Shown: one piece after another, positions 37,399-38,173 of the stretch
How positions within the stretch are numbered: position 1 is the first letter of the stretch
How the letters are laid out: each line of letters opens with the position of its first letter
Source of the DNA: Tateyamaria sp. ANG-S1
Lineage (GTDB): Bacteria; Pseudomonadota; Alphaproteobacteria; Rhodobacterales; Rhodobacteraceae
Reading direction: 5' to 3'
DNA length: 64,000 nt
NCBI RefSeq assembly: GCF_000814025.1
Contig: NZ_JWLL01000001.1
Span: 124,001 to 188,000, forward strand
Program-made: the position numbers and the translations under genes
Notes under the pieces: generated by a model
Seen by the model: only the letters and a program-made list of their open reading frames with translations
Databases searched by the model: none
Told to the model about the DNA's origin: nothing

Positions 37399-37424
37399 GG
37401 AACCTTTTCCCCTCTTGCCGCGTT
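37399..37424 (+). promoter_or_regulatory. EcfG-type (general stress sigma factor) promoter before otsBA
   Basis: GGAAC (37399-37403) and CGTT (37421-37424) are separated by exactly 17 bases. This is the full consensus for promoters of EcfG, the alphaproteobacterial general stress sigma factor. It starts 6 bp after the trcR stop codon. The predicted transcription start, about 37431, is only a few bases from the otsB ATG candidates at 37433 and 37448. Trehalose synthesis is a known EcfG output in several alphaproteobacteria. Confidence 0.72.
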
Positions 37425-37447
37425 GCAGCGTCATGGACGCTACAAAC

Positions 37448-38173
37448 ATGAACATCCCCAAATTGCCGCCTTGCACAAAGGCGGCAATTTTTTTGGACTT
37501 CGACGGGACACTAGTGGACATCGCGCCCACGCCCGACGGCATCCATATCCCCGACACGCTGCCCGCGCTGCTGAACGACCTGTGGGACCGGGCAGGTGGC
37601 GCGCTGGTCCTCATATCCGGTCGCGCAGCGGGCGACCTGTCCGCATGGCTGCCCGACTACACGGGCCTCATCGTCGGTGGGCACGGGGCAGAGTGGCGGC
37701 GCGATGGACAGGTCACGCCCCGCGTGGACCTCTCGCCAGACAGCCTCGACACGCTGCGCGACGCCGCCAGCGCCTTCGCAGGCACACACCCGCCCGTCCT
37801 GCTCGAAGAAAAACCAACCGGCCTCGTCCTGCACTACCGCGCCCAGCCCGACCTGCAAGACACGGTCGAAACCTTCACCGCTCATCTCGCCCAGACCCAC
37901 ACCGACTTCGAAGCGCACCCCGCCAAGATGGCGATCGAGATGCGGCCGCAGGGCGTGGGCAAGGACCTCGCCATGGCCGACATCATGGGGTTCGACCTCT
38001 TCTCCGGCCGCACGCCGGTGATGATCGGCGACGACACTACCGACGAACCGGCCATGGAATGGGCCCAAAAACAAGGCGGGCTCGGGATCAAGGTCGGCCC
38101 GGGCGAGACGAAAGCCCACCATCGCTTGCCTGACACGCAAGCCGTGCATACCCTGCTCAAACACTGGGCCTGA
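37448..38173 (+). CDS. otsB: Trehalose-6-phosphate phosphatase
   Basis: A 241-residue HAD-superfamily phosphatase that converts trehalose-6-phosphate to trehalose. FLDFDGTLVD (12-21) carries the nucleophile Asp and the general acid. LVLISGRAAGDL is motif II and VGKDLAM carries the lysine. MIGDDTTDEPAM is the metal-binding motif IV. Two ATGs are possible, 37433 and 37448, and neither has a clear ribosome-binding site. The shorter form fits family length. A perfect terminator-like hairpin overlaps codons 5-16. otsA follows 19 bp later with its own AAGGAG, so otsB and otsA form the osmo- and desiccation-protective trehalose operon. Confidence 0.92.
   Translation: MNIPKLPPCTKAAIFLDFDGTLVDIAPTPDGIHIPDTLPALLNDLWDRAGGALVLISGRAAGDLSAWLPDYTGLIVGGHGAEWRRDGQVTPRVDLSPDSLDTLRDAASAFAGTHPPVLLEEKPTGLVLHYRAQPDLQDTVETFTAHLAQTHTDFEAHPAKMAIEMRPQGVGKDLAMADIMGFDLFSGRTPVMIGDDTTDEPAMEWAQKQGGLGIKVGPGETKAHHRLPDTQAVHTLLKHWA
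37460..37494 (+). terminator. Intrinsic-terminator-like hairpin inside the otsB start region
   Basis: AAATTGCCGCCTT (37460-37472) and AAGGCGGCAATTT (37478-37490) are perfect 13-bp arms with a 5-base loop, followed by a run of seven T (37488-37494). Its sequence encodes otsB residues about 5-16. It can act as the trcR terminator and, on transcripts from the stress promoter, as an attenuator that translating ribosomes would melt. Confidence 0.75.

Follow-up and report, generated by a model that had tools for sequence, protein, structure and literature searches.

Organization of the trcR-otsB locus

The window, by which we mean the whole 64,000-nucleotide stretch of Tateyamaria sp. ANG-S1 DNA that was analysed (genome G000 in our sample), carries on its + strand the gene order trcR, a gap of 39 bp, otsB, otsA and an ltaE-like gene. 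The features of the locus are as follows.

36638-37393, + strand: trcR, transcriptional cell cycle regulator TrcR (Pfam PF06242, 9.7e-63; ORF list)
37399-37424, + strand: EcfG-type promoter, GGAAC at 37399-37403, N17, CGTT at 37421-37424 (motif; conservation; stress regulators in the genome)
37433, + strand: predicted transcription start, the A of the otsB ATG (from the CGTW-N8-ATG invariant in 6/6)
37433-38173, + strand: otsB, trehalose-6-phosphate phosphatase, with an alternative in-frame ATG at 37448 (TIGR00685, 6.4e-30; PF02358)
37460-37472, + strand: terminator 5' arm, AAATTGCCGCCTT, within otsB codons 10-14 (sequence; co-variation)
37473-37477, + strand: hairpin loop, GCACA (sequence; RNA fold)
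37478-37490, + strand: terminator 3' arm, AAGGCGGCAATTT (sequence; co-variation)
37488-37494, + strand: T-run of seven, its first three T able to pair with AAA (sequence; terminator score d = 27.0)
37433-37494, + strand: predicted short RNA of 62 nt, if transcription from the EcfG promoter stops at the terminator
38193-39548, + strand: otsA, trehalose-6-phosphate synthase (TIGR02400, 4e-146, bits under the cut-off; PF00982)
39615-40658, + strand: ltaE-like gene, beta-eliminating lyase (PF01212, 2.5e-89)

The coordinates of promoter, hairpin and T-run in the preliminary description of this locus were all correct on recheck. The otsB of the window is 93% identical to that of Tateyamaria sp. syn59 and 89% identical to that of T. 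omphalii. The ltaE-like gene, ltaE being the name of a threonine aldolase gene, adjoins trcR in relatives without an adjacent otsB.

In our sample of 20 genomes of the genus otsB was present in eight, directly after trcR in six (G000, G006, G003, G002, G017 and G016). The otsB comparison comprised 56 distinct loci from genus and family together with 60 loci from the class; 48 of the 51 non-own family matches at E <=1e-20 were examined (G166, G178 and G191 were left out), as were the first 60 of the 78 non-own class matches listed, and duplicate rows were removed (L002 is G006, L003 is G003 and L130 repeats L053). At L011 (G008, of the same genus) and, in several other genera, at L033, L034, L035, L041, L042, L047, L049, L054, L055 and L058 otsB opens with a YYEMIGF-like peptide, a start that the six trcR-linked otsB genes do not have and which may mark a different otsB lineage or an extension.

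The EcfG-type promoter and the predicted leaderless start of otsB

All six trcR-otsB genomes of the genus carry GGAAC-N16/17-CGT[T/A] followed by exactly 8 nt and the ATG, and CGTW-N8-ATG is invariant among them, the variants being a spacer of 16 in G002 and CGTA in G017. A strict EcfG motif was found within 350 nt upstream in 17/56 otsB loci (11/50 once the six are set aside), while the reversed motif was found in 0/56; among the class loci the motif is present upstream in 10/60. Judged from these counts, control of otsBA by EcfG is likely to be common among otsB loci. The bare motif is not rare genome-wide (57 matches as against 121 for the reversed control), and it is its position and conservation that make it meaningful here.

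The regulators that such a promoter calls for, whose presence the preliminary description had left to be checked, were found at a general stress locus on G000:C23 (L110, G000:C23:206500-224000, at 5280-9216), which has PhyR (PF22029 and PF22233, response regulator), NepR (PF18557), an adjoining ECF sigma factor, a HisKA_2/HWE kinase and, nearby, a Dps-like ferritin; EcfG of G000 is assigned by its place next to nepR. A divergent GGAAC-N16/17-CGTA lies between phyR and nepR. With the motif upstream of a stress gene and with PhyR, NepR and an ECF sigma factor in the genome, the identification of the element as an EcfG-type promoter holds. NepR occurs in 14 of the 20 genus genomes, that is, in all 8 with otsB and in 6/12 without it. 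Along the locus the order is kinase, ECF sigma factor, NepR, PhyR and then the ferritin, and three GGAAC-N16-CGTT sites were observed on one side of nepR, some 4-5 kb away.

The call of a leaderless transcript is based on the usual distance from the -10 box to the start; the invariance of CGTW-N8-ATG in 6/6 suggests a leaderless otsBA mRNA, which would start at the otsB AUG, and the 8-nt spacing agrees with the leaderless geometry proposed earlier. Besides the six, this spacing was seen in G640 only, the distance from the -10 box to the first in-frame ATG ranging elsewhere from 3 nt (G777) to 116 nt, so that the leaderless placement, as predicted from the motif, is not common among otsB loci. 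A count of the EcfG motif followed by 8 nt and ATG in the 20 genus genomes gave 43 sites, including the 6 at otsB, whereas the reversed pattern gave 29, and this does not show a general leaderless-EcfG feature. The idea that the AUG is hidden by a small AGCGTC-ATG-GACGCT hairpin was rejected, the AUG being unpaired in folds of the read-through RNA of G000, G006 and G002; pairing is partial in G003, limited to the third base in G017 and complete only in G016.

A terminator-like hairpin in the first codons of otsB

A perfect 13-bp hairpin followed by seven T spans 37460-37494, which corresponds to codons 10-21 of otsB. The final T falls at position two of the Leu codon preceding DFDGT, the catalytic motif of the HAD class of enzymes to which OtsB belongs, and the T-run therefore ends one base 5' of the first Asp codon of the motif. 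RNA of 37425-37510 folds at -31 kcal/mol (z -4.34; as stable in 0/200 shuffles), and the terminator hairpin dominates the single fold that was made of this stretch, its 11-bp core contributing -18.2 kcal/mol to a stem of 13 bp with a T7 tail. The sequence thus has what is expected of an intrinsic terminator, a stable GC-rich hairpin directly before a T-run. A separate leader ORF with its own stop, as in leader-peptide attenuators, was not found, and the hairpin lies within the otsB frame itself. Start codons beyond the terminator, the in-frame TTG at 37493 just before DFDGT and GTG at 37514 after it, were considered and rejected, because either the hydrophobic residues before the Asp, present in every otsB peptide inspected, or the motif itself would be lost.

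A simple terminator scan of the window did not return the in-otsB hairpin, probably because it allowed the AAA-TTT pairing and so left too few T in the tail. Our own scan of the whole window, which used a simplified form of a published hairpin-plus-tail formula for the score d, gave seven matches scoring >10 at six places, the in-otsB hairpin being one of them. The other five places lie between genes, as read from the ORF lists; mechanical ORFs run over some of these five and have no Pfam family match (of 10 ORFs tested 4 had a match, none of these 4 over a terminator, and 7 were without a match to the region). The strong terminator-like hairpin at 11456-11476, just past the gene for ribosomal protein L20, has T-runs on both strands and is thus bidirectional.

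One alternative to a functional element is a coincidence of coding, in which the codons of PP...AA and IFLDFDGT happen to give a functionless hairpin and T-run. The T-run is indeed cheap, since the strand preceding DFDGT favours T-rich codons, and Pro and Ala codons are able to pair; the unexpected part is the matching 5' arm. When the peptide was kept and synonymous codons were sampled according to local usage, the terminator score of G000 was not attained in any of 20,000 recodings, while the own score was reached 15 times in 20,000 in G017, 17 in G037, 292 in G016 and 524 in G276, so that the values for G017 and G016 leave coincidence some room which that for G000 does not. In folding excess over the 20 codons before DFDGT, G000 and its three nearest trcR-otsB relatives hold ranks 1-4 of 116 otsB loci, with G017 in 15th place and G016 outside the best 16, and parts of the stem are maintained by changes on both sides. 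The hairpin in otsB is beyond chance, and we regard a mere coding coincidence as very improbable.

Conservation and co-variation of the hairpin

The in-otsB terminator scores above zero in 6/6 same-genus trcR-otsB genomes, five strongly and one marginally (41.5, 27.0, 27.0, 27.0, 26.2 and 1.3), the hairpin of G016 being the weakest. Among the 110 other otsB loci a scoring in-otsB terminator was noticed in two, G037 (1/50 of genus and family) and G640 (1/60 of the class). The terminator proposed earlier is supported as a real and conserved element.

The stem is identical or almost so in G000, G006, G003 and G002. In G017 two pairs are changed on both sides, from T-A to C-G, with the core of the stem kept, and G016 has the paired changes of G017 plus mismatches and a broken T-run. 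In the stem alignment 92.3% of cells are paired and 3/13 pairs show changes on both sides; the covariation score was reached by 0/500 shuffles, a signal that rests on two diverged sequences, and two of the five co-variation measures were unremarkable (double-change pairs, 20/500 shuffles; further pair types, 500/500). At the codon level, the 11 hairpin codons show zero synonymous changes against G006, G003 and G002, as compared with changes in 18-34% of amino acid-identical codons elsewhere, while against G017 and G016 they are ordinary (3/7 and 2/7 of amino acid-identical codons changed). Taken alone, the conservation of the hairpin stretch is unexceptional, as 75, 31 and 29 of 235 otsB windows are equally alike in the comparisons with G006, G003 and G002, respectively, and 101-177 of 235 in the far pairs with G017 and G016.

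The loop and the stretch from ATG to stem vary among the six. This variation bears on the possibility that the element exists to make the 62-nt stress RNA, which would then be a 5'-derived sRNA like UpsM of Rhodobacter sphaeroides. The geometry is predicted to yield a discrete promoter-to-terminator RNA, and UpsM is a terminated leader with read-through of about 1 in 100 (PMC5089854). Against it, besides the variation in those parts, an Rfam search of 36500-38300 at E up to 1 returned 0 matches, and we consider an sRNA function quite improbable.

The 3' side of trcR in related genomes

Of the 20 genus genomes, 14 have a scoring terminator (d>0) after trcR, which lies in otsB in six and is intergenic in eight. 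These eight are among the 14 genomes without an adjacent otsB, all have ltaE next, and they make up 8/10 of the genomes with a recognised ltaE start next to trcR. The remaining six of the 14 have no scoring trcR terminator (G013, -6.4; G015, -3.1; G005, -14.4; G004, -22.3; G011, -61; G001, none), which shows that trcR can do without one. In G013 and G005, where ltaE is next, there are hairpins with poorer tails or stems; G004 has an imperfect hairpin and an ltaE start unmatched by the search pattern; and in G001, G011 and G015 the opposite strand downstream of trcR carries a long open frame, with two further open frames of 217 and 230 codons on the + strand in G011.

We consider it moderately probable that the hairpin serves trcR as its intrinsic terminator and has been displaced into the opening codons of otsB, where it would also damp EcfG-driven otsBA. 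Direct support comes from the anatomy, the conservation, some co-variation, the general stress genes and the intergenic trcR terminators of many relatives. With the EcfG promoter occupying the 39-bp gap, the terminator would have been pushed past the otsB start. It would end the trcR RNA about 66-101 nt past the trcR stop codon, and the preliminary description's remark that the in-gene hairpin ends the trcR transcript is, as a prediction, supported. The EcfG promoter would start a leaderless otsBA mRNA at the otsB AUG, and since the T-run ends one base before the Asp of DFDGT, RNA coding for OtsB cannot start beyond it, which makes read-through obligatory for otsBA. The outcome would be a low basal output of otsBA, insulation from trcR, a damped promoter-driven stress induction and a 62-nt by-product. 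The start site, the termination, the read-through fraction and the direction of displacement are the parts of this reading that we infer.

Comparison with loci outside the genus gives points both for and against displacement. In G236 the order is the usual one, trcR, terminator, EcfG promoter and otsB, with no T-tailed hairpin in otsB, and in G173 and G334, where otsB is about 1 kb away, the trcR terminators are intergenic; as far as the sequences indicate, it is where a short gap is filled by the promoter that the terminator lies past the otsB start. In G640, a member of another family, the upstream gene is co-directional and the gap short; the EcfG motif is followed by 8 nt and the ATG, and a weaker hairpin precedes T5. 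This repeat of a like layout counts for a displaced terminator. On the other hand, G297, a trcR-otsB genome, has no terminator in either place in the stretch scanned, and G276 has only a weak hairpin (d -3.1); both count against displacement, as does the apparent cost, since a strong terminator in the sole path to OtsB looks costly. G037, a distant relative, counts against it too, unless it is the one chance case among 110, its in-otsB hairpin (d=20, T5; EcfG motif, 48-nt gap; L130, 3518-3675) lying downstream of a divergent MFS gene. G037 and G276 are each the sole member of their genus in the sample. Overall, the distribution of the predicted hairpin tracks the need to end the trcR RNA better than it tracks EcfG control of otsB.

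Three further observations concern individual loci. In G016 a second hairpin with T4 (d 3.9; L016) lies 27-57 nt past the trcR stop, its 5' arm in the promoter spacer and its 3' arm containing the otsB ATG; being absent from the leaderless RNA, it would act on trcR read-through only. The otsB of G236, whose trcR terminator is intergenic, holds at the same early codons an inverted repeat that is perfect over 14 bp but has no T-run (L044, 1484-1525; folding excess P 0.003 by recoding). The layout of G640 is found at L160, 768-860, and 7/1000 recodings reach its score.

Translation and the in-gene terminator

It had been proposed in the preliminary description that the hairpin acts by attenuation coupled to translation. 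On such a reading a 70S ribosome would load on the 5' AUG of the leaderless otsB mRNA; only if it had moved about five codons before RNA polymerase got to the T-run would the 5' arm be masked and otsBA expressed, and the output would depend on translation efficiency during stress. Any RNA begun at the EcfG promoter has to run into the hairpin, at about +28 to +62. G037, where the EcfG motif and in-otsB hairpin occur with an upstream gene that is not co-directional, is by its layout the locus most likely to have a true attenuator of otsB. Some alphaproteobacteria have many leaderless mRNAs, with 375 in Caulobacter (PMC4117421) and 171 in S. meliloti (PMC3616915). Several points stand against the gate. 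The hairpin tracks trcR adjacency in the genus, and most otsB loci with an EcfG motif are without it. The footprint of an initiating ribosome reaches to about +15, which leaves an initiating 70S short of the 5' arm at +28. For the leaderless RNA (+1 to +90), G000 and G006 fold with a mostly paired AUG, and G003 and G017 with its third base paired. Moreover, the E. coli terminator tR2, set 30 bp downstream of an AUG, remained largely efficient, translation lowering its efficiency by only about 10% (PMC4824070); as translation barely relieved that terminator, we expect a constant damping of otsBA and not a switch. Initiation by a 70S ribosome on a leaderless message could nevertheless be faster than the ordinary kind, and the ribosome-gated reading keeps, in our estimate, a modest probability. 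Translation-coupled attenuation is thus not supported as the main role, given the tR2 result and a distribution that follows trcR, while obligatory read-through and the case of G037 keep a place for it.

A broader form of the same idea, which we hold to be somewhat less likely still, is that a leaderless attenuator, in which the 70S ribosome would race RNA polymerase and the same terminator would serve as the 3' end of trcR, arose separately in Tateyamaria, G037 and G640. Trehalose would then be made only when leaderless translation is brisk, and the T-rich codons of the DFDGT strand, by supplying a ready U-tract, would account for the separate origins in distant otsB genes.

Comparison with known systems

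Each element of the arrangement at otsB is of a known kind, and the new part is the combination, an unusual overlap in which a terminator, a stress promoter of probably leaderless output and the opening codons of otsB come together. One close likeness is metA of S. meliloti, where a validated intrinsic terminator lies in the supposed first codons of an alphaproteobacterial gene and a strong promoter gives a short RNA with low expression beyond it (PMC9373788), as is predicted from sequence for otsB. There, however, the terminator lies between AUG1 and AUG2, translation is from AUG2 and a SAM-II riboswitch precedes (PMC9373788), whereas the otsB start must precede the terminator and the otsB region has no Rfam match. 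UpsM/mraZ of R. sphaeroides likewise has a promoter leading into a Rho-independent terminator, with the downstream gene dependent on read-through, but that terminator belongs to a 5' leader of 268 nt and ends up outside the coding sequence, with 84 nt between it and mraZ, and the text available to us of PMC5089854 does not describe a role for the upstream gene. In the tR2 construct, as in otsB, the terminator falls in the opening 100 bp of a coding sequence; the construct differs in being plasmid-borne with an ordinary ribosome-binding site (PMC4824070), the otsB start being predicted to be leaderless.

Known EcfG stress promoters have the same GGAAC and CGTT boxes and the PhyR-NepR-EcfG system; the spacer is N16 in PMC7083833 and N17 at otsB, where in addition a terminator lies directly downstream of the predicted start. 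Our literature search found no EcfG promoter with a terminator directly downstream of its start and no in-gene terminator of otsB or EcfG; in the accessible text of PMC4842269 both 'leaderless' and EcfG occur, EcfG being named only in the references. If the reading of a displaced trcR terminator is true, compact genomes can place a terminator in the early codons of the next gene, past the promoter of that gene, and one hairpin serves two transcripts. The otsB gene would then offer a natural case in which to ask if ribosomes on a leaderless message can outpace termination over 60 nt. The attenuator survey of PMC2965389, so far as its available text indicates, appears to look only upstream of the first codon, and surveys limited in this way would miss in-gene cases like otsB.
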